From Oribacterium sp. WCC10 (GTDB lineage: Bacteria > Bacillota > Clostridia > Lachnospirales > Lachnospiraceae): 37,592 nucleotides of DNA. The position numbers and the translations under genes are program-made. The first letter of the stretch is position 1; the number at the start of each line of letters is the position of its first letter. Of this stretch, positions 3,964 to 28,745 are shown in pieces. The notes beneath the pieces are model-generated. The model had not been told where the DNA came from. It ran no database searches and worked only from the letters and a program-made list of their open reading frames with translations. Where the stretch lies: assembly GCF_900113415.1 (NCBI RefSeq), contig NZ_FOPH01000024.1:1-37592 (forward strand), read 5' to 3'.

Positions 3964-4232
3964 TGATGTAAGGGTCAAAAGTACCAAATAACGTGCTTGT
4001 ACGTTGATTTGAGACTTTATGACCCGCCTGAACACGAATAACGTAGTCGTTTTGCATAGCAAAAGGACCCAAGTTTGAGTGTTCAGCAGCACATCTGCCT
4101 TCGATTTTTAATCGAAGGAGCTACGCGGCTTTGAGCGCTTCAAAGGAATCTGTAAGGATTCCTGCTCATTGCACAAGAATTTGTGCGTTAGCGCTAATCA
4201 GTGAGTGGCAAATACTTTTGACACTCACGTCA
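3964..4232 (+). repeat. MITE-like structured repeat, copy B
   Basis: This 269-bp element starts TGATGTAAGGGTCAAAAGTA and ends with TACTTTTGACACTCACGTCA; the reverse complement of the end matches the start at 17 of 20 positions, giving terminal inverted repeats. It is flanked by a perfect 5-bp direct repeat TTTAA (3959-3963 and 4233-4237), the signature of a transposition target duplication. Internally it contains at least five hairpins and no ORF of note. It lies just upstream of the AGCS gene, so it could affect that gene's leader. Confidence 0.9.
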
Positions 4233-5980: not shown

Positions 5981-5991
5981 GATGATATTAT

Positions 5992-6262
5992 GATGTAAGG
6001 GTCAAAAGTACCAAATCACGTGCTTGCACGTTGATTTGAGACTTTATGACCCGCCCGAACACGAATAACGTAGTCGTTTTGCATAGCAAAAGGACGTGAG
6101 TTATGAGTGTTCAGCAGCACAACTGCCTTCGATTTTTAATCGAAGGAGCCACGCGGCTTTGAGCGCTTCAAAGGAATCTGTAAGGATTCCTTCTCATTGC
6201 ACACGAATGTGTGCGTGCTGCGCATCATCAGTGAGTGGCAAATACTTTTGACACTCACGTCA
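5992..6262 (+). repeat. MITE-like structured repeat, copy C
   Basis: This 271-bp copy is very close to copy B, with the same 20-bp imperfect terminal inverted repeats. It is flanked by the perfect 5-bp duplication TATTA (5987-5991 and 6263-6267). Hairpins seen from left to right: ACGTGC/GCACGT inside a longer GGGTCA/TGACCC closing stem; AACG-TAGT-CGTT and TTTTGC-ATA-GCAAAA inside GAACAC/GTGTTC; CCTTCGATT/AATCGAAGG; TTTGA/TCAAA; GGAATC/GATTCC; GCACAC-GAAT-GTGTGC; and a final GTGAGTG/CACTCAC. Confidence 0.9.
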
Positions 6263-18497: not shown

Positions 18498-18526
18498 TTG
18501 ACTTGTTGTATGAAAATACGTACAAT
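18498..18526 (+). promoter_or_regulatory. sigma-A promoter driving the tandem-hairpin RNA
   Basis: TTGACT (18498-18503) and TACAAT (18521-18526) are spaced by exactly 17 bp, close to consensus. A perfect 8-bp inverted repeat, GACTTGTT (18500-18507) and AACAAGTC (18530-18537), brackets the -10 box and the expected start near 18533, and could be a repressor operator. Confidence 0.75.
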
Positions 18527-18532
18527 ATAAAC

Positions 18533-18638
18533 AAGTCAAGAAGATGTGGCGAGTGCTTCACAGATTCAAAGCGATTCGTGAGAGAAGAACGGTAGACGAC
18601 ATGGCGGGTGCTTCATGGAGTCGAGGTTCTTTTTTTTG
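18533..18638 (+). ncRNA. candidate structured RNA with two matching hairpins
   Basis: The stretch between the promoter and terminator has no ORF and holds two hairpins of the same design. Hairpin 1 (18540-18567) is GAA-GA-TGTG, a 10-nt loop GCGAGTGCTT, then CACA-GA-TTC. Hairpin 2 (18595-18622) is GAC-GA-CATG, loop GCGGGTGCTT, then CATG-GA-GTC. Each has 3 bp, a tandem G-A/A-G internal loop and 4 bp; the paired bases differ between the two copies yet pairing is kept, while loop and GA motif are almost unchanged. Hairpin 2 also lies inside the terminator stem. It may be an independent small RNA or a cis-acting attenuator for the exopolysaccharide operon 210 nt downstream. I cannot match it to a known Rfam class. 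Confidence 0.7.
18586..18638 (+). terminator. terminator built on hairpin 2 of the RNA
   Basis: AGAAC (18586-18590) pairs with GTTCT (18626-18630), enclosing hairpin 2, and is followed by a run of T from 18631. Confidence 0.75.
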
Positions 18639-18704
18639 TGCCATAAAAGTGTAATTATACGGAGTTATTATCCTTTTGGATTTCAATTATGTATTTTTTA
18701 TTTG

Positions 18705-18733
18705 ACCTGTGACGTGAGATGCCACAGGTTTTT
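18705..18733 (+). terminator. leader hairpin, possible terminator or attenuator
   Basis: ACCTGTG pairs with CACAGGT around an 11-nt loop, followed by TTTTTATT. It lies between the candidate RNA and the first gene of the exopolysaccharide operon, so it could attenuate read-through. The rest of the 380-bp intergenic region (18468-18847) is AT-rich; I cannot place a second promoter with confidence. Confidence 0.5.
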
Positions 18734-18847
18734 ATTATGTTGAAAGTTCAAATTGAGAACAGAAATACAGATTCATTGTTTTTTAAGTATTGAATAGTTA
18801 TAGGGGCAATAATTGAACCGATAAAAATATAAGACAAGGAGGGTTTT

Positions 18848-19441: not shown

Positions 19442-19458
19442 ATTTCAGGAGAATGCAT

Positions 19459-20142
19459 ATGCTTGATGTAAGCCGTAAAGAACTGAAATACATGATAGGG
19501 ACGGATGAAGTTTACTACTTGCGTAAACGTATTGAAAGGCTGATGGAGGCAGATTCAAATAATGATCTTTACGGGTATACAGTCAGATCCCTATATTTTG
19601 ATACCTGGAAAGACAATGATTATCAGGAAAAACTTGATGGGCTTAATAACAGAAAAAAGATACGTATGAGAATCTATAACGGTTCCCGGGATTATATAAA
19701 GCTTGAACTTAAAGCAAAAGAAGGTGATTTTCAGAGGAAGAGATCATTAAAGCTTAATGTTGATGAAGCAGAAAGAATGATTGACGAAGACTATACTTTT
19801 CTTCTTGAAAGACCTGAGGGATTCGCTCATGGGCTTTATACAATGATTTCAACCAAAGGGTATAGGCCGAAATGTATCGTTGAGTATGACAGAATTGCAT
19901 ATATGAATGAGTTCAATGATATAAGAGTGACCTTTGATATGCGGCTGAGGGCTCTGGAAGACCCGTACGAGTTCTTTTCCGGAAACATTGAGGCATACCC
20001 TGTGGCAGATTCCTCAGAGACTACTTTGGAGGTTAAGTATAACGGTTTCCTGTTTTCGTATATCAAGCATGCACTTGATCTTGTTGACAGGCCACGTATT
20101 TCCAATAGTAAGTATGTTAGGGCCAGAGCATTTTTGAGATAG
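19459..20142 (+). CDS. VTC-domain (polyphosphate polymerase-like) protein
   Basis: The 227-aa soluble protein resembles the VTC catalytic domain, a triphosphate-tunnel fold: RKELKYMIG at the N-terminus, RSLYFDTWKDNDYQEKLDGL, RKKIRMRIYNG, YIKLELKAKEGDFQRKRSL and a late TLEVKYNGF. The alternating basic and acidic strands are typical of this fold. In eukaryotes VTC makes polyphosphate; bacterial homologues are repeatedly found with CotH and DUF4956 genes, and their function is poorly defined. The ATG at 19459 is chosen over 19453 because AGGAG is properly spaced only for the former. It is followed 16 nt later by the DUF4956 gene. Confidence 0.85.
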   Translation: MLDVSRKELKYMIGTDEVYYLRKRIERLMEADSNNDLYGYTVRSLYFDTWKDNDYQEKLDGLNNRKKIRMRIYNGSRDYIKLELKAKEGDFQRKRSLKLNVDEAERMIDEDYTFLLERPEGFAHGLYTMISTKGYRPKCIVEYDRIAYMNEFNDIRVTFDMRLRALEDPYEFFSGNIEAYPVADSSETTLEVKYNGFLFSYIKHALDLVDRPRISNSKYVRARAFLR

Positions 20143-20158
20143 TTTGAGGAGAAGTTTC

Positions 20159-20845
20159 ATGAAGGAGTATTTATATAATGGACTTGTAGAGACCACCGGA
20201 TCACTTACTATAAACGAAGTTATCCTGAATTTTGTGGCTGCCGGTATTCTAAGTGTGCTTATCTATATTTCCTACAGAATCTCACACTCAGGGGCAGTTT
20301 ACAGCAGAAAGTTTAATGTATCTCTTGTGATGCTTACTTTTGTGACAACTCTTGTCATGAATGTTATAGGAAATAATATAGCACTTTCTCTTGGTATGGT
20401 CGGCGCACTTTCGATCGTAAGATTCAGAACAGCCATAAAGGATCCCAGAGATACGGCATATATATTCTGGTGCATAGCAGTAGGCATCACCTGCGGTGTA
20501 TCGGATTATCTGATTGCCGGAATTGGTACATTTATAATATTCATTTTCCTCGTTATCTTTGGAGTGGTACGTGATAATGACAGAATAATGATAGTGATGA
20601 AAACCGATGTGGAAAAGATTGAAGAGATCGACAGGGCAATAGTCGGTTTCTTTAACGGTAAAGCCATAATGCGTGTTCAGAATGCCAATAAGGAAAAAGG
20701 ACAGGCTGAACTTATATATGAAATCTCAGAGAATTATCTGAAGAAAAGAGAAAAAACAGAAGGGTCATTTGTTCCTAAATTTTCGGAGAAAGAAGGAGTC
20801 AGAAACATAAGTCTTGTAAGACAGGATGAGGAGATCAATCAGTAG
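20159..20845 (+). CDS. DUF4956 membrane protein
   Basis: The 228-aa protein has an N-terminal membrane part with about four segments (about 15-135) and a cytoplasmic C-terminus. The stretch SLGMVGALSIVRFRTAIKDP followed by RDTAYIFWCIAVGITCGV is the hallmark of the DUF4956 family, here between membrane segments. Its association with VTC and CotH proteins is recurrent in bacteria. ATG 20159 is chosen since GAGGAG lies 8 nt upstream; the upstream TTG at 20144 overlaps that site. Confidence 0.87.
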   Translation: MKEYLYNGLVETTGSLTINEVILNFVAAGILSVLIYISYRISHSGAVYSRKFNVSLVMLTFVTTLVMNVIGNNIALSLGMVGALSIVRFRTAIKDPRDTAYIFWCIAVGITCGVSDYLIAGIGTFIIFIFLVIFGVVRDNDRIMIVMKTDVEKIEEIDRAIVGFFNGKAIMRVQNANKEKGQAELIYEISENYLKKREKTEGSFVPKFSEKEGVRNISLVRQDEEINQ

Positions 20846-20853
20846 CCGGAGGT

Positions 20854-22518
20854 ATGATCTTGAAAGATAAGATATTAAGATATGAAAAAATATATCTTAT
20901 AAGTATTTTTGCCGGTATATTGCTGTTTTTAGGATTGTTTTGTGTTATGAGAGGAAGATTAAGATTCTCTCAGCATCCCATGGGAACCTATAGTACACTT
21001 CAGCCGTGTGATATCACAGAGGATCCTCTCGAGTATATCGGGGAGGATTTTACTGTGATGGATGGATTTCATACCAATCTGCCTATAGTAATTCTGTCAC
21101 TTGACACGGACCTTCCTGACTATAAAACATTTAAAGATTCTTCAGAGGTAGTATTCGAAGGAGTAGACCCATATACTACCGGACATATAAGCATTATAGA
21201 TACGGGACTTGGAGACAATACCCTGGCTGATCCTGTTATTTATGACAGTATGATAAAGATAAAGATAAGAGGACATTCTTCATACAACTACGATAAGAAG
21301 CAGTACAAGATAAAAGCTTATCATGAGAATGGAAACGAAAATCAGACAGGTATTCTTGGTATGGGAGAAGGATCGGAATGGATCATTAACGGTAGTCTTG
21401 CGGATAAAAGCATGATGAGAAACTATCTCGCCTATAGAATAGCATCAGAGATTGACGGTAATAATATGGCTCCGGATTCAAGATATTGTGAAGTACTCAT
21501 TCGAAAAGATGATAATCTTAAATATCAGGGAGTATTTCTCATTATGGAAAGTGTTAGCAGGGGGAAAGACAGGGTAAAAATCGATAAATATAATCCGAAG
21601 AAAAAGTATTCAAGTTATATAGTACGACGTGACAGAAAAACAAACTTTGATATCATGCTGGATACTTACGGAAGGCAAACAGGTATTGTCTTCACAGATG
21701 ACATTGAAGATACAGTAAAAGAAAATGATAACTGGATAGGCTTAAAGTATCCGGGTAAAACGAATATTACAGATGAAACCATTGAATATATAACAAAGGA
21801 TTTTTCAAAAACCGAGAAAGTTTTATATTCTAAAAATATCAATCTGTTCAGAACTTACGAAAAATATATTAATGTTGAATCTTTTGTTGATTATTTTTTG
21901 ATCAATGAATTCTTTGGCAATTATGATGCGGGTGAGCATTCAACCTATATGCATAAGAATTCAGGTGATGTGTTATATATGGGACCGGTATGGGACTTTG
22001 ATCAGGCTATGAATAATTATCTGGTTGAAGAATTGAAGGCAGAAGATCTTGCATTTGAGATGCAGCCGTTTTTTAAGGAACTATGTAATGATAAGAAGTT
22101 TGTTAGAAAACTTCAGAAGAGGTATGCAGAACTCAGGAAAAGATATCTGTCAGAAGATTATGTCTTTAATCTGATAGAAGAAACAGAAAATTATCTGAAG
22201 TGTGCTCAGGTTCGTGAATGGTACAGATGGGCAGCAGATTATCTTGATGATACAGGACTGAATCCTCACAACTACAACCTGAATGATATAGTTGTAGCCG
22301 GCGTAACACTTTCAAGATTTACCGATGAGTATTCGGATGAAATATATGTAATAAAGAAATATATACATGAGCATGGAAATATGATTCAGAGAGATCTGAC
22401 CGGTATCCTTAACGGTGCAAAGTGGGATACGACTATAGGTGGTATCAGGGAGCTTATTTTTATAGCAATGATTACACTTGTACTTTTGCCATCCTATATC
22501 ATCCAGAGAAAGGGTTAG
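20854..22518 (+). CDS. CotH-like kinase family protein, membrane-anchored
   Basis: The 554-aa product has an N-terminal membrane segment (about 13-31), a large extracytoplasmic CotH domain and a C-terminal hydrophobic segment (about 529-548). Family motifs include KIKIRGHSSYNYDKKQYKIK (Gly-His-Ser and Lys of the nucleotide site), EWIINGSLADKSMMRNYL, YQGVFLIMESV and MGPVWDFDQAMNN (the Asp-containing metal motif). CotH proteins are atypical protein kinases; here it probably modifies a cell-surface component of the polysaccharide system. GGAGG lies only 1 nt before the ATG, so the TTG at 20860 (7 nt from the site) may be the true start. The next gene follows after 2 nt. Confidence 0.87.
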   Translation: MILKDKILRYEKIYLISIFAGILLFLGLFCVMRGRLRFSQHPMGTYSTLQPCDITEDPLEYIGEDFTVMDGFHTNLPIVILSLDTDLPDYKTFKDSSEVVFEGVDPYTTGHISIIDTGLGDNTLADPVIYDSMIKIKIRGHSSYNYDKKQYKIKAYHENGNENQTGILGMGEGSEWIINGSLADKSMMRNYLAYRIASEIDGNNMAPDSRYCEVLIRKDDNLKYQGVFLIMESVSRGKDRVKIDKYNPKKKYSSYIVRRDRKTNFDIMLDTYGRQTGIVFTDDIEDTVKENDNWIGLKYPGKTNITDETIEYITKDFSKTEKVLYSKNINLFRTYEKYINVESFVDYFLINEFFGNYDAGEHSTYMHKNSGDVLYMGPVWDFDQAMNNYLVEELKAEDLAFEMQPFFKELCNDKKFVRKLQKRYAELRKRYLSEDYVFNLIEETENYLKCAQVREWYRWAADYLDDTGLNPHNYNLNDIVVAGVTLSRFTDEYSDEIYVIKKYIHEHGNMIQRDLTGILNGAKWDTTIGGIRELIFIAMITLVLLPSYIIQRKG

Positions 22519-22520
22519 GT

Positions 22521-23954
22521 ATGCTGTTTTCAAGTATTCCGTTTATACTGTATTTTTTTCCGACAGTTCTTGTTGGTTACTATTTATTGTTCTTTTCCAG
22601 ACTTCTGCAGAATGTGTGGCTGTTGTTCGCAAGTCTTCTTTTTTATGCATGGGGAGAGCCGGTATACGTTCTTCTTATGATTTCATCCATAATGGTAAAC
22701 AGTATCGTGGCCATTGTCATAGGTGGAATGAAAAAAGGACAGGTGAGAAAGGCAGTATTCATCTTATCTGTGGTATTCAACATAGGAATGTTATTTGTTT
22801 TTAAGTACCTTGGTTTTGTATTGTCTTTTTTTGGAGAATGGGGTAATGCTCTGTATTCGAAGTTGAATATATCGCTTCCCATAGGCATCTCATTTTTTAC
22901 GTTTCAGGCATTATCATATGTTGTAGATGTATACAGGGGAGAGGTTAGGCCGGAGAATCCATTTTATGTAGGACTTTATATTTCATTTTTTCCTCAGCTT
23001 ATAGCAGGACCTATAGTTCAATACAACTATATAGCTGAACAGCTGAGGAACAGAAAAAGCAGTATAGATAAATTTTCATTGGGAATGTGCAGATTTGCAG
23101 CAGGATTTGGAAAAAAGATACTTTTGGCCAATACATTTGCTTCTCTGGCAGACCATGTGTTTTCCTGGTCACAGATAGGCAGCGATAAACTGGCGGTTCC
23201 GGCTACTCTGGCATGGTTTGGAAGTATAGCATATTCACTACAGATATACTTTGATTTTTCTGCTTATTCGGATATGGCTATCGGACTTGCTTTATGTTTC
23301 GGTTTCAAACTTAAAGAAAATTTCAATTATCCATATATTGCCACTTCTGTCACTGATTTTTGGAAAAGGTGGCATATATCGCTGACAGACTGGTTCAGAG
23401 ACTATGTATATATTCCTCTTGGCGGAAACAGGAATGCCAATAAGGATCTGGTTGTCAGGAATCTCCTTGTAGTCTGGACACTTACGGGAATATGGCATGG
23501 TGCAAACTGGACATTTATTTTTTGGGGATTGTTCTATTTTATATTACAGTTGATTGAGAGGTTTTCTGACTTCGAAAAAAACTGCCACAATACTTTGATC
23601 AGGAGGACATATACACTTATTACAGTTAATTTCCTTTGGGTTTTATTCAGATCGGAAGATATTTATCAGGCAGGTCGGTTCTACTTGAATATGTTTGGAG
23701 TTAACAACAATGGTTTTCTAAGTGATACCGCCTTTATGCTTTTGAAAGAGAATATTTTTTTTATTCTGGCCGGGATATTGTTGTCGACACCGGTTGTGCC
23801 AATGTTTAACAAATGGATATATGAACATCAAAAGAGCAAAGTATCATATGTTTTTTCGTTTATATATCCCGTTACCATGATATGTATGATCATTTGTTGC
23901 ATAAGTTATCTTATCATTGGAAGCTATAATCCGTTTATCTATTTTAATTTTTAG
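22521..23954 (+). CDS. MBOAT-family O-acyltransferase (AlgI/DltB-like)
   Basis: The 477-aa polytopic membrane protein has MBOAT features: the N-terminal LFASLLFYAWGEPVYVLLM, LPIGISFFTFQALSYVVDVY, the FWKRWHISLTDWFRDYVY-IPLGG block, and LTGIWHGANWTFIFWGLFY with the conserved histidine. Proteins of this type (AlgI, PatA, DltB) pass acyl groups across the membrane to sugars. With the following DHHW/AlgX-like gene and the synthase, it is expected to O-acetylate the exopolysaccharide. ATG 22521 is chosen because the longer frame would overlap the CotH gene by about 100 nt and the hydrophobic start fits. Confidence 0.92.
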   Translation: MLFSSIPFILYFFPTVLVGYYLLFFSRLLQNVWLLFASLLFYAWGEPVYVLLMISSIMVNSIVAIVIGGMKKGQVRKAVFILSVVFNIGMLFVFKYLGFVLSFFGEWGNALYSKLNISLPIGISFFTFQALSYVVDVYRGEVRPENPFYVGLYISFFPQLIAGPIVQYNYIAEQLRNRKSSIDKFSLGMCRFAAGFGKKILLANTFASLADHVFSWSQIGSDKLAVPATLAWFGSIAYSLQIYFDFSAYSDMAIGLALCFGFKLKENFNYPYIATSVTDFWKRWHISLTDWFRDYVYIPLGGNRNANKDLVVRNLLVVWTLTGIWHGANWTFIFWGLFYFILQLIERFSDFEKNCHNTLIRRTYTLITVNFLWVLFRSEDIYQAGRFYLNMFGVNNNGFLSDTAFMLLKENIFFILAGILLSTPVVPMFNKWIYEHQKSKVSYVFSFIYPVTMICMIICCISYLIIGSYNPFIYFNF

Positions 23955-23972
23955 AGATTTGGAGGGGCTGAA

Positions 23973-25202
23973 GTGAATTATTTTTTCAGAAAAAGAGCAT
24001 TTGCATTAATATTCACTCTGCTTATTATGATCTTCAGCGGGTATAACTTATATATAAATGGCGAAAATGTTTTTTCTGTTGTGAAAAACCAATATGAAAA
24101 TCAGTCTGTCAGTACATCTGAAATAGAAGACAGTATGCTTGAAAACATTATTTACAAGAGAGGACTGGTTGAAGTATACGGTCTTACCCAAAAGATGTTA
24201 TTAAAGAATGAATACAATGATTTTGATTATATTAAAGATGAAAAAGGATTTTTGAATTATGCCAGATTTTATTCAGAAGATACAAAAGATATATTTGATT
24301 ATGCACTCAGAGTAAAGAGACTTCAGGATTATGTTTCTGAATATGGTACCAGGGTACTTTTTGTCATAACCCCATCAAAGTATATTAGAGGAACATCCAG
24401 ATTTGAAATAGGAATGCCGATTAGCGATCCTGATCATGAAATAAATGAACTAATGGTTTATCTGAATCGTCTTGGAGTGAAAACTCTTAATATGGGAGAA
24501 TACTTTCCGCTTGAAGACTTAAGTTATGAAGAGACATTTTTTAAAACAGATCATCATTGGACTGTGCCTGCGGCATTCAGGGCAACAGGAATTCTTGTAG
24601 AAGAGATAAAGAAAAAGTTTGGCGATGATCTTGATCCGACGGGATATTATACATCTACGGATGCGTATAGAGAAGAAACCTATTATGGTCATATGTTCGG
24701 AGCGCTTGGAAGAGATACGGGAATCATATATGCAGGACTTGATGATTTCACTGCGCTGTATCCAAAGTATGCCGGGAATTACATAAGAGAGTATACATAT
24801 GGCAGTGGTAATATCTTTAGGAAAGAGGGATCTTTTGAGGAAACTTTTCTGGATAAATCTGTATTGGCAGATGATATAGATCTATATGAAGAATCTCAAT
24901 ATTCATTATATATCAATCAGGTTAGAGAAATTGAGAATATAGAGAATTTAGATAATGTTGACGGGAAAAATATTTTTATGATCAGAGATTCCTACTTCGG
25001 ACCTGTCATTACATTTATGGCTCCTATGTGTAAAAGAATAGATGCAGTTTATGCCCTTATGCATGACAATGATCCCAACCTGTCAGTGTCAGATTATCTT
25101 AAGGATAGATATGACGAGGGGTATAGATATGATTACGTGATAATAGAAATATATCCATACAACATCGAAGATAATGCATTCAGGTACTTTAGAGTCGACT
25201 AG
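23973..25202 (+). CDS. DHHW/AlgX-like SGNH acetyltransferase partner
   Basis: The 409-aa product starts with GTG, 7 nt after a GGAGGGG site. It has an N-terminal signal anchor (about 8-28) and an extracytoplasmic SGNH-like domain with the KTDHHWT motif (Asp-His) in the middle and MIRDSYFG near the C-terminus supplying the likely nucleophile serine. Related proteins (AlgX, AlgJ, DHHW proteins) accept acetyl groups from an MBOAT partner and move them to the polymer. Its place directly after the MBOAT gene (18 nt) agrees with that. Confidence 0.87.
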   Translation: MNYFFRKRAFALIFTLLIMIFSGYNLYINGENVFSVVKNQYENQSVSTSEIEDSMLENIIYKRGLVEVYGLTQKMLLKNEYNDFDYIKDEKGFLNYARFYSEDTKDIFDYALRVKRLQDYVSEYGTRVLFVITPSKYIRGTSRFEIGMPISDPDHEINELMVYLNRLGVKTLNMGEYFPLEDLSYEETFFKTDHHWTVPAAFRATGILVEEIKKKFGDDLDPTGYYTSTDAYREETYYGHMFGALGRDTGIIYAGLDDFTALYPKYAGNYIREYTYGSGNIFRKEGSFEETFLDKSVLADDIDLYEESQYSLYINQVREIENIENLDNVDGKNIFMIRDSYFGPVITFMAPMCKRIDAVYALMHDNDPNLSVSDYLKDRYDEGYRYDYVIIEIYPYNIEDNAFRYFRVD

Positions 25203-25285
25203 GGAAACATTGCCAAAATACAGCATTATCAGATGGGGATAATAAAAATGAACAGGTTTTTGAAGTGTTCATTTGGGAGACTGAT

Positions 25286-27595
25286 ATGTGGAAGGATAAG
25301 GTGCTTTTTTATCTGAATACTTTTTTTTCCATCGTATATATAATATGGCGAATATTTTTCACCATACCCTTTGGCTGCGGAATTATAGCAGTTTTATCCG
25401 GAATTTTTCTCCTTGTGGTTGAAGGACTTGGTATGGTGGAAGCTTTTATTCATTTCATGAACATGAGGTCTGCAAATCAGTATAGGCTCCCTGTGGTTCC
25501 GGAAGACAGATTTCCTCATGTAGATGTATTTATTGCAACCTATAGTGAGGAACCTGAGCTGCTTTATAAGACGATCAACGGATGTAAAAGGATGGAATAT
25601 CCTGATAAAAGCAAGGTTCATATATATCTTTGCGATGATAACAGAAGACCGGCAATGGAGGAACTTGCAAGGAAAACAGGGATTAATTATCTGAAAAGAC
25701 CTGATAACAGAGGAGCGAAGGCAGGAAATCTGAATAATGCTCTGAAACATTCTTCATCTCCGTATGTAGTGACGTTCGACGCAGACATGATACCACAAAG
25801 AAGATTTCTGATGTGTATCATGCCGTATTTTGTTGATGCAGAGATATGGAACGAAAAACGCAAGGATTCTGAGAAAATAAAGATGGGATTTGTACAATCA
25901 CCTCAGAACTTCTATAATCCGGATTTGTTTCAGTTCAATCTTTTTTCGGAAGGCCGCATACCAAACGAACAGGACTACTTCTATAAGGATATACAGGTTG
26001 CAAGAACCAGAACCAACAGTGTTATATACGGTGGCTCCAATACAGTCATCTCAAGAGAAGCACTGGAAAAAGTAGGCGGCTTTTTTACTGATGCCATAAC
26101 CGAAGATTTTGCCACGGGTATCCTCATACAGAAAGCAGGTTATGTGACATTGGGAATCTCAGATCCTTTGGCATCGGGGATGTCACCAACTGATCTTCCT
26201 AATCTTATACAGCAGAGAATCCGATGGGGAAGAGGTGTTATCTCCACAGGAAGAAAGATGCATCTGTATACTTCAAAAGATCTGTCTTTCGGACAAAAAC
26301 TCAATTATTGGGCATCGGTATATTACTGGTATGCACCTGTAAAGAGACTGATTTATATCATGTCTCCGCTTATGTATGCTACATTTGGATTTACTATTTT
26401 CAAGTGTACATTACCTCAGGTACTTGCCTTTTGGCTGCCTATGTACGTAACTACGAGTCTGTCTCTCAGTAAACTGTCTGGAAATATCAGATCCACAAAG
26501 TGGACAGGTATTTATGAAACAATAATGTTTCCATTCATGATTTTGCCGATAATGCTTGAGACCTTTGGAATATCATTGAAGAAATTTAAGGTGACCAGGA
26601 AGGTGACAATCAGTGGTAAACAGCATTATGGATTGTATATGGTGCCGTTTATTATGCTCATATTTCTATCGCTTATTGGTGTGGTCAGATGTATTATGGT
26701 GATATTTGATGGCGGTAATATGGGACCGATAGTGGTTTTGTTCTGGATGATAATGAACATGTACTATATGATCATGGCGATAATGTTCATTGACGGAAGG
26801 GCAGCGTACAGGAAATCGGAACGAGTTCCACTTACTGTTCCTTGTACTTTTGTTATAGACGGTATGGAGAGAGAAGGGACAACGGTTGATGTTTCTGAAG
26901 AAGGCCTGGCTGCAAGATTTATAAGACCTTACTATCTTGAAGCGGGAAGGGAGATACCGGTACGTCTGAAATGGGAAATATATTCTGTTGATCTGATAGC
27001 AAAGCTTGTTTATGTAAAACAGCAGGGAGATACATGGATGTATTCCATGTCTATAACTGATTACAGGGATAGTTACGATGACTGGCTATGTATCATACAT
27101 GACAGAATACCGCCGTTACCATCTACAATAAAAAAAGACAGCGGAAGTTTTGAAGATCTTAAACTAAATACAACAAAGAGACTTGCTACTCCGTTTTTTC
27201 AGAAAAGACTTTATCCAAGGATACTTTTGGATGAAGAAGCCAATGTGGTAGACGGTGAAATAGATAAAGTTCATGTGAAAGATTTCAATTATCTTTACTT
27301 CAACATATCAATTATAGAAGGACCAAAGAATCTTAAGATTGCTCTTTTGGATGATATTGTTTTTGATACGACATTTGAACATCAGATTCATGGAGCCGGT
27401 AGTTTGTACAGAGTAAATAATCTGGAAGAAATCATTCATGATGAAACTAAGTATTATGAACTTAGAGAGTATCTTGTTAAAACTAATATTAAAGCTCAAA
27501 AAGATGTGTCTCTGATTGCTCTTAATCATGAGAGGGAGCAGAGAGAGGCGCAGAAGGCTGAAAGAGTAGTATTTGACGAAACAAAACTTGTATGA
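25286..27595 (+). CDS. BcsA-like cellulose synthase with PilZ domain
   Basis: The 769-aa protein (ATG 25286, with GGGAG 6 nt upstream; GTG 25265 is less likely) is a family 2 glycosyltransferase with about seven membrane segments. Catalytic motifs: DVFIATYSEEP, CDDNRRP, FDADM at 164-168, TED at 272-274 and QQRIRW at 309-314. The PilZ domain has RKSER at 509-513 and DVSEEG at 535-540, both needed to bind c-di-GMP, so polymer synthesis and secretion should be switched on by that messenger. A C-terminal extension of about 150 residues follows PilZ. No BcsB, BcsC or BcsZ gene is nearby. The product is probably a beta-1,4-glucan or close relative. Confidence 0.9.
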   Translation: MWKDKVLFYLNTFFSIVYIIWRIFFTIPFGCGIIAVLSGIFLLVVEGLGMVEAFIHFMNMRSANQYRLPVVPEDRFPHVDVFIATYSEEPELLYKTINGCKRMEYPDKSKVHIYLCDDNRRPAMEELARKTGINYLKRPDNRGAKAGNLNNALKHSSSPYVVTFDADMIPQRRFLMCIMPYFVDAEIWNEKRKDSEKIKMGFVQSPQNFYNPDLFQFNLFSEGRIPNEQDYFYKDIQVARTRTNSVIYGGSNTVISREALEKVGGFFTDAITEDFATGILIQKAGYVTLGISDPLASGMSPTDLPNLIQQRIRWGRGVISTGRKMHLYTSKDLSFGQKLNYWASVYYWYAPVKRLIYIMSPLMYATFGFTIFKCTLPQVLAFWLPMYVTTSLSLSKLSGNIRSTKWTGIYETIMFPFMILPIMLETFGISLKKFKVTRKVTISGKQHYGLYMVPFIMLIFLSLIGVVRCIMVIFDGGNMGPIVVLFWMIMNMYYMIMAIMFIDGRAAYRKSERVPLTVPCTFVIDGMEREGTTVDVSEEGLAARFIRPYYLEAGREIPVRLKWEIYSVDLIAKLVYVKQQGDTWMYSMSITDYRDSYDDWLCIIHDRIPPLPSTIKKDSGSFEDLKLNTTKRLATPFFQKRLYPRILLDEEANVVDGEIDKVHVKDFNYLYFNISIIEGPKNLKIALLDDIVFDTTFEHQIHGAGSLYRVNNLEEIIHDETKYYELREYLVKTNIKAQKDVSLIALNHEREQREAQKAERVVFDETKLV

Positions 27596-27638
27596 GGTTG
27601 TATGAATTTGATGAAGTTCTCAAACGACAGGAGGATAT

Positions 27639-28745
27639 ATGAATAAGCGTTCGGCATCTTTGCTTATAGTTATTTTGTTCATTGTTGTACTGTCAGTGGG
27701 ATATCTGATATTTGGCGGGAAGATAAAGAGAATATATGAGATGGAGCAGAATATGAAGTTTGTAAAATCTTTGGGAGCCGGAATAAATATCGGCAACGAT
27801 TTGGATGTTTACAATATTCGTGGATATATAGAAAATCCATCCATCTATGATTATGAGACCGCATGGGGGAATCCTCCTGCCGAAAGAAATACATTTGCAG
27901 CAGTTAAAAGTTCAGGGTTTAACACAGTACGCTTGCCTGTTACCTGGAGTGAACATTTGGACAGCGACGGAAATATAGATGATGAATGGATGAAAAGAGT
28001 AAAAGAAGTTGTAGACACGGCTCTTTCCGAGAATCTTTTTGTTATTATAGATACACATCATGAAGCTTTCATTATTCCGACTTATGAGAAAGAAGCTGAG
28101 ACAACAGAAAAGCTCGTGAAAATATGGAAACAGATTGCAGAGAATTTCAATGACTATGATGAGAGACTTATGTTTGAGGGAATGAATGAACCGAGACTCA
28201 TCGGAAGCGACGAAGAGTGGACAGATGGCACGAAGGAATTGAGAACAGTTGTTAACCGTTTGAATTCTGCTTTTATAAAAACGGTAAGAGAGACAGGTGG
28301 GAATAATAAAAAACGGGTTTTGTTTATCTGCGCCTATGGGTCAAATTACAGAACTCATGCTCTTCAGGAACTTGAGATACCGGATGATACACATATAGCT
28401 GTTTCTGTACATGCATATCTTCCATATAAGTTTATCGATGCTTCACAAGGAAAGAACAAGTGGAAAGAGGATCAGGAGTCCTATACATCAAAGATTCTGG
28501 AATTGAAAGATACTATACAAAGATGCTTTCTCAGTAATAGAATTCCGGTTGTTATAACCGAGTTTGGATGTGAGGAAAAAGAGTCGGAAGAAGAAAGAAT
28601 TAAATGGGCTGATTATTATCTCAGGCAGTTTTCGGAGATAGAAGTCCCGTGTATATGGTGGGATAACGGTGATGAATATGGAGTGTTTGACAGAAAGACC
28701 GGTGAGATAACACATGAGGAACTGGTTAACAGGTTGGTGAGATGA
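27639..28745 (+). CDS. membrane-anchored GH5 glycoside hydrolase (endoglucanase)
   Basis: The 368-aa protein has an N-terminal membrane anchor (about 7-26) and a GH5 domain: LGAGINIGNDLD (45-56), the VRLPVTW strand, IIDTHHE (137-143), acid/base Glu184 in EGMNEPR and nucleophile Glu308 in VITEFG. It would cut beta-1,4-glucan at the cell surface. Cellulose operons commonly include such an enzyme (BcsZ in Proteobacteria, GH5 in Firmicutes), needed for proper polymer export or length. An AGGAGG site precedes the start. Its stop overlaps the following gene's ATG. Confidence 0.92.
   Translation: MNKRSASLLIVILFIVVLSVGYLIFGGKIKRIYEMEQNMKFVKSLGAGINIGNDLDVYNIRGYIENPSIYDYETAWGNPPAERNTFAAVKSSGFNTVRLPVTWSEHLDSDGNIDDEWMKRVKEVVDTALSENLFVIIDTHHEAFIIPTYEKEAETTEKLVKIWKQIAENFNDYDERLMFEGMNEPRLIGSDEEWTDGTKELRTVVNRLNSAFIKTVRETGGNNKKRVLFICAYGSNYRTHALQELEIPDDTHIAVSVHAYLPYKFIDASQGKNKWKEDQESYTSKILELKDTIQRCFLSNRIPVVITEFGCEEKESEEERIKWADYYLRQFSEIEVPCIWWDNGDEYGVFDRKTGEITHEELVNRLVR

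Follow-up and report, generated by a model that had tools for sequence, protein, structure and literature searches.

The window analysed here, a 37,592-nt stretch of contig NZ_FOPH01000024.1 (GCF_900113415.1) from Oribacterium sp. WCC10, carries at 18498-18640 of its forward strand the locus of a small RNA that is almost certainly a member of a genuine family of stand-alone RNAs. The family has a patchy distribution within its GTDB family, and its members share a hairpin that is under selection and occurs in variable number, with a promoter and a terminator in most of them. By analogy with known systems, there is an even chance that the RNA acts by titrating a protein. It is sponge-like in anatomy and belongs to none of the families tested; the hairpin code and the family are new, while the kind of system is known.

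At this locus (Table 1), direct reading confirmed the near-consensus promoter with 17-bp spacing, the coordinates and base pairs of the two hairpins, the T-run that follows them and the compensated changes between their stems (A-T to C-G, TGTG/CACA to CATG/CATG) that had been noted in a preliminary description of the DNA. The extent given there (18498-18638) is also real, but it leaves out a second terminator-like stem and a possible tiny ORF further downstream.

Table 1. Features of the RNA locus, in window coordinates.
Feature	Position	Strand	Description and basis
Promoter	18498-18526	+	-35 TTGACT (18498-18503), 17 bp, -10 TACAAT (18521-18526); direct reading and recurrence in the family
Hairpin 1	18540-18567	+	GAA/TTC, tandem G.A, TGTG/CACA, GC(GAGU)GC with UU bulge; covariation and model R3
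Hairpin 2	18595-18622	+	GAC/GTC, tandem G.A, CATG/CATG, GC(GGGU)GC with UU bulge; covariation and model R3
Terminator 1	18585-18637	+	Stem AAGAAC (18585-18590)/GTTCTT (18626-18631) around hairpin 2; T8 at 18630-18637
Putative tiny ORF (weak)	18660-18705	+	CGGAG at 18660, TTG start at 18676, TGA at 18703-18705, 9 codons; stop abuts terminator 2
Terminator 2 (terminator-like stem)	18706-18733	+	Stem of 10, loop of 3, then T5; stem/T-run scan

Hairpins 1 and 2 form a 29-nt direct repeat with 76% identity and lie 55 bp apart, the second being nested in the stem of terminator 1, whose fold (18585-18638) has a predicted energy of -16.1 kcal/mol (z = -2.26). In the window, GCGRGTGCTTCA is matched with zero mismatches at the two hairpin sites only, and with up to two mismatches at eight sites against 2.5 expected; genome-wide it has seven sites, every one inside copies of the RNA, and the reversed pattern has none. 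With filters off, model R3, whose own rows include the window hairpins, scores hairpin 1 at 42 bits (E 1.5e-10) and hairpin 2 at 38.7 bits (E 1.6e-9), and beyond the hairpins of the RNA it finds no site in the window below E 1.3. The folding energy of the 111-nt window RNA has a z of -1.33, and in its minimum-energy fold a competing pairing displaces hairpin 1. Since folding energy alone fails to show the structure, the claim for an RNA structure is founded on covariation and conservation. In the competing fold, loop 1 pairs with the downstream linker AAGCGATTCG (within 18549-18580), which could be a switch or an artefact. A separate observation, made by eye, concerns the promoter, where the -35/-10 spacer and the -10 element (18506-18526) form a dyad resembling ATTGTAT-N8-ATACAAT. 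Dyads of this kind recur in a number of Oribacterium copies as well as in G332, G724 and G343, and may be operators.

Homologues with conserved hairpins were sought by blastn and with covariance models, and both approaches found them. Among 61 genomes (the bacterium's own and 60 relatives), blastn returned 23 matches in eight genomes, all of them from the genus of the window, and the own genome was found to hold six copies of the RNA; R1, a covariance model of 21 copies, has matches in 11 of the 17 genomes of the genus. Most copies carry a promoter and a T-run terminator. The promoter is missing, and the upstream sequence different, in the C26 copy of the own genome (L221 ~5034, G000:C26) and in its G015 orthologue, both of them perhaps decaying, and in the G003 copy hairpin 2 is not followed by a T-run. 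A scan of named genomes for the double-hairpin pattern gave at least 113 stretches, and by eye at least 35 of those listed are family members, the remainder being chiefly GC-rich coding or repeat sequence. R1 was run on 84 of 117 pattern loci, comprising 80 of the 113 stretches listed and four viral loci (L137-L169 were omitted), and at E <= 1 it had 29 matches, with doubt over the weakest. A viral or plasmid origin was considered and rejected, as none of the four viral stretches with the double-hairpin pattern resembles the RNA on reading, R1 has no match there, and plasmid and phage collections contain nothing that matches the window copy.

The members bear the labels of Oribacterium spp. 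(C9, P6A1, NK2B42, KHPX15 and UBA4274), Lachnospiraceae (JC7, NK4A144, MC2017, KH1T2, KH1P17 and XBD2001), the MAGs RUG214, RUI004, RUI302 and RUI482, one Lachnospira, one Butyrivibrio and one Eubacteriales MAG, and two MAG contigs labelled uncultured Bacteroides (L072 and L097), labels that are probably wrong. Under strict filters, R2, a single-hairpin model, matches 12 of the 397 GTDB-family genomes searched, the own genome among them; the single, weak matches in G112, G385 and G426 are treated as due to chance, and these three genomes are counted as doubtful bearers. R3, again under strict filters, has matches in eight of 392 genomes of the order, the one in G728 being weak and single, and in three of 341 genomes of the class, namely the own genome and two with single matches that resemble coding sequence and were judged to be due to chance; in searches of more than 40 genomes the stricter filters lose weak matches, and absences are not firm.

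The view that this is an unannotated and novel RNA agrees with the database searches. In the window and 16 loci, Rfam 15 gave no match over the RNAs at the gathering score; permissive E-values gave nothing on the RNA, and 18603-18736 returned sub-threshold noise only (rseX at 23.5 bits against 50, MIR397, snoR11 and OmrA-B). A literature search with the exact loop string and the topic, in which subscription journals are thinly covered, yielded no description of the RNA.

The sets of RNAs used for the counts that follow (30 for GGA, 20 for the ORF, 33 for folding, 35 for promoters and 37 for spacing) were picked by eye from the fetched loci and include related members. Where a locus has at least two hairpins (37 loci), their number is two in 28, three in three, four in one, five in three, six in one and seven in one; in two genomes, G332 and G724, the RNA has a single hairpin. 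The pair of binding sites originally proposed therefore represents the commonest number, and other members have one or three to seven. Start-to-start spacing of the hairpins ranges from 39 to 113 nt, with 42 of 60 values within 54-65, and a -35/-10 pair scoring at least 9.5 of 12 precedes 26 of the 35 RNAs, against 3.3 expected from shuffles. Two layouts are observed. In Oribacterium, KH1P17, MC2017, NK4A144 and KH1T2, hairpin 2 lies within the terminator stem, and in others a separate terminator-like stem follows the hairpins. A coding interpretation, in which TGG CGN GTG CTT CAY, present in both hairpins, would specify WRVLH with the variable base at the wobble position, was rejected on account of a spacing that is not a multiple of three and of the existence of other loops (GAGA, GAT and GAAG).

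Evidence for selection on the hairpin comes from three alignments. The first (A1) spans the whole Oribacterium-group RNA in 21 of its 23 copies, two with identical cores having been omitted; its row ends were placed by hand, and row L009 ends before the terminator arm. Nine pairs in this alignment are changed on both sides, no shuffle out of 500 matches it on any measure, and all slid controls are exceeded; in helix 2, the stem of terminator 1, 100% of cells are paired and five of six pairs are changed on both sides. The second (A2) consists of 65 ungapped hairpins from 27 loci picked by eye. Each of them contains GGCGNGNGCTTCA and lies no more than 130 nt from a neighbor; selection on this pattern accounts for the 11 invariant columns of A2, whereas the stems were left free. 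Columns 13/28 hold 33 G-C, 27 A-U and 3 C-G pairs and columns 8/33 hold 30 A-U, 30 G-C and 2 C-G pairs, and the covariation score of 0.385, against at most 0.110 in slid controls, is reached by none of 500 shuffles, although on two of the five measures, the pairs with changes on both sides and the further pair types, 46 and 90 of the 500 match it. The third (A3), with 67 hairpins (52 of the 65 in A2 and 15 of 17 variants), scores 0.422 against at most 0.115 in slid controls; zero or one of 500 shuffles attains any of the five measures, and none the score. The shuffle tests ignore kinship, whereas the slid controls account for it. In A3, 37 G-U pairs have the G on the 5' side and one has the U there, a bias that argues for selection as RNA on this strand. 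The covariation thus upholds the earlier proposal of a selected RNA structure with equivalent repeated sites.

The covarying fold also redefines the apex of the hairpin. The 10-nt sequence formerly described as an open loop is there, but in the RNAalifold structure two further pairs form below a loop of 4 nt and UU is bulged out, and compensatory variants support these inner pairs, with C-G replaced by U-A in GGTGTGAACTTC and G-C by A-U in AGCGATGCTTT; in another variant, GGCGATGCTTC, the loop is reduced to GAT. From its base, the consensus hairpin has a stem, an internal loop rich in purines and 3-4 bp; above these come a G-C or A-U pair, UU bulged on the 3' side, and two pairs capped by a small G-led loop. 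UU is present in all 67 rows of A3, an invariance imposed in part by variant search strings that also contained CTTC or CTTA. Across 97 hairpins, the apical loops in this fold are GAGA (42), GTGT (17), GAGT (12), GAT (12), GAAG (5), GTGA (4), GAGC (2) and three singles, that is, loops of 3-5 nt that are mostly tetraloops with some triloops. Thermodynamic prediction is less favorable: across 33 RNAs, the predicted probability of the outer core pair exceeds 0.5 for 36 of 88 hairpins, and predicted energies often favor other folds.

Apical loops of this size are small for base pairing, which was counted in favor of a protein as the titrated partner. An alternative is a base-pairing sRNA family akin to the Qrr paralogues, in which single-stranded linkers would pair with mRNAs and the hairpins would serve as scaffold or for stability. 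Multiple copies, a length of about 100 nt, an intrinsic terminator and a linker, ACGATTCGTGA, that is well kept among the Oribacterium copies would all suit such a family. Between genera, however, the linkers vary in sequence while the hairpins remain alike (by eye), linker length is variable, and the linker of the window copy pairs with loop 1 in the energy fold, so that base pairing appears a somewhat unlikely primary role.

The genomic context of the RNA suggests action in trans. In the window, the RNA lies on the strand of, and about 210 bp upstream of the first gene of, an operon-like run (19453-28745) encoding VTC, DUF4956, CotH, MBOAT, AlgX-like, GT2 with PilZ and GH5 proteins, a c-di-GMP-type exopolysaccharide set. 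This position and the nesting of hairpin 2 in the terminator speak for a cis-acting riboswitch or attenuator of the downstream operon, yet such a role is highly improbable. A second terminator-like stem separates the RNA from the operon, the downstream gene is opposed in four of the six copies of the own genome and co-directional in two, and the other five copies have other neighbors (by eye). Two ORFs on each side of 21 loci, read by eye, revealed no recurring downstream gene, and only L228 and L236, which are from the same genus, share neighbors. Because downstream genes differ between copies, the exopolysaccharide operon is a neighbor and not an evident target, and the connection drawn between the two in the preliminary description is not supported. 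Its choice between a trans-acting sRNA and a riboswitch or attenuator is likewise narrowed, the riboswitch being unsupported and action in trans being probable, given that promoters recur and no downstream gene does.

The same scatter of copies could point to a dispersed intergenic repeat devoid of regulatory function. Flanks mostly differ, one copy and its orthologue lack the promoter, and VOC-type genes are found within about 1.1 kb of four Oribacterium-group copies (L025, L024, L027 and L017); these genes, which we take to belong to the VOC superfamily, may perhaps mark common insertion hot spots, and VOC-superfamily-like genes number 24 in G000, G011, G015 and G016 together. Against a mere repeat, most copies retain promoter and terminator, compensatory changes extend across genera, some copies occupy the same place in two species, with others at unique places, and the window copy has no match in plasmid and phage collections, all of which makes this explanation very hard to credit.

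A second recurrent element is found at the 3' end of some members. Among 20 RNAs with a separate stem, nine have an ORF of 5-9 codons that starts behind a Shine-Dalgarno (SD) match of 4 nt or longer and stops no more than 3 bases from the stem, against 0.84 expected from shuffles; with an SD of at least 5 nt the count is eight against 0.37, and where a T4 run lies within 60 nt of the stem it is eight of 17 against 0.64 (stems L235, L229 and L223 have no T4 run within that distance). Because the choice of stems was made by eye and examples had been seen before the rule was devised, the counts are not blind, and the independent cases are fewer than nine because G332 and G724 are close relatives. 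The encoded peptides are mostly unlike one another (MEEPGK in two related genomes, MGPTDQ, MGYRSPNDQ and others), and their shortness and dissimilarity imply that translation, rather than the peptide, may be the conserved feature. This module of ORF stop and terminator is new, beside a new hairpin family, and its occurrence in some members suggests a role in or near translation. A reading centered on it would make the RNA a translation-linked decoy, whose hairpins and 3' SD/tiny ORF would attract or sense ribosomes, or a factor bound to them, with a ribosome at the stop controlling the adjacent terminator or 3' end. The excess of ORFs abutting stems, the weaker but similar tail of the window copy, which lies outside the 20-RNA set, and the short, dissimilar peptides speak for it. 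Eleven of the 20 RNAs, however, have no ORF by the rule, a scan of 22 Oribacterium-group copies found the tail pattern in the window copy alone (under the rule applied to the 20 RNAs, an ORF is present in the G003 copy), and the rule itself is post hoc, which leaves the decoy an unlikely account of the family.

The favored explanation is a modular sponge RNA. The RNA would be made from its own vegetative-type promoter and would usually end at an intrinsic terminator, as its sequence suggests, displaying one to seven copies of the same hairpin. Each hairpin would most likely be a binding site for one RNA-binding protein, which the RNA would titrate from other clients, as CsrB and RsmZ do CsrA and EutX does EutV, with a capacity set by hairpin and gene copy number. 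We infer a protein partner and its sequestration from the combination of six copies in the own genome, covariation, variable hairpin number, recurring promoters, the lack of a recurring downstream gene, and linkers that diverge while the hairpins remain alike. Several observations run counter to titration: the single-hairpin RNAs of G332 and G724, predicted energies that favor other folds, the measures of A2 matched by shuffles, the tiny ORFs and the VOC neighbors. In the own genome, moreover, 12 of 14 matches to GGCGNGNGCTTC and, under strict filters, all 12 R2 matches at E <= 0.01 fall inside the RNAs themselves, and because nearly all of these matches lie in the RNAs, no mRNA client with the same hairpin can be recognized. 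A complete circuit of Gram-positive gut bacteria, in which an RNA-binding protein would read the UU-bulged, G-led hairpin, hairpin and gene copy number would set capacity, and in many members the stop of a minimal ORF, touching the terminator, would tie the 3' end or lifetime of the RNA to translation, is offered tentatively.

Sponge RNAs with several hairpins are familiar chiefly from the Csr/Rsm systems of proteobacteria, in which they bind CsrA. Like CsrB/CsrC and RsmX/Y/Z, the RNA described here appears, by sequence, to be stand-alone, with a variable number of repeated hairpins and several RNAs per genome. The GGA that characterizes CsrB/RsmZ loops, in contrast, is found in none of 82 hairpin cores (30 RNAs), although the pattern used to define the core hardly admits it, and whole RNAs (30) contain 104 GGA against 130.9 expected from shuffles. 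Absent from the cores and unenriched in whole RNAs, GGA provides grounds for rejecting a GGA-type CsrA sponge. CsrA itself was found in 20 of 22 bearers, the exceptions being G003 (completeness 72%) and G008 (93%); across the GTDB-family sample, 210 of 397 genomes have it. It is present in all nine credible bearers among these 397 (P 0.003 by genome and 0.012 by genus, with kinship ignored); inclusion of the three doubtful bearers, none of which has it, gives nine of 12 (P 0.10, with kinship ignored).

A precedent within the Firmicutes is EutX/Rli55, reported to be an sRNA with antiterminator-type hairpins that sequesters the ANTAR protein EutV. ANTAR targets are defined by hexaloops with A1 and G4, and lengthening of their linker by 20 nt is reported to abolish antitermination (PMC8934654). 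By comparison, the RNA differs in having no A1/G4 hexaloop among 97 hairpins, a spacing of 39-113 nt and no match to an Rfam riboswitch. Of the 22 bearers, 21 were found to encode ANTAR proteins, with none detected in G005, a count that covers bearers alone; an ANTAR target was rejected, as the defining hexaloop is absent. LoaP genes often lie near polysaccharide operons. The LoaP protein is reported to bind a hairpin of the UNCG type within the leader of its target operon (PMC12691694). As in the binding proposed here, the target is a small RNA hairpin bound by a regulator; unlike that hairpin, the RNA has small G-led loops, a UU bulge and no operon, and a LoaP hairpin was rejected on its loop type, which differs from UNCG.

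Six copies in a single genome and up to seven sites per RNA, together with a hairpin code peculiar to the family, point to an uncharacterized RNA-binding regulator in the Lachnospiraceae, and the 29-nt hairpin provides a ready bait for this partner, with a UU-bulge mutant as control; if confirmed, the sponge would amount to a new RNA-based regulatory circuit in this family of gut bacteria.

Other structured RNAs occur near members of the family. In G343, a TwoAYGGAY RNA (RF01731, 60.9 bits; L196 1679-1835, minus strand) lies just downstream of a two-hairpin RNA, on the opposite strand. Clostridiales-1 RNA (RF01699) is, like the RNA described here, a small RNA of Clostridia, in its case an Rfam family, but it differs in sequence, with no gathering-score match on this RNA or on its scanned relatives. 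The window contains two copies of it, 2 kb apart at 3964-4096 and 5991-6142 (50.3 and 58.2 bits), and a start sequence resembling it was also seen by eye downstream of the RNA in NK4A144 (L152).
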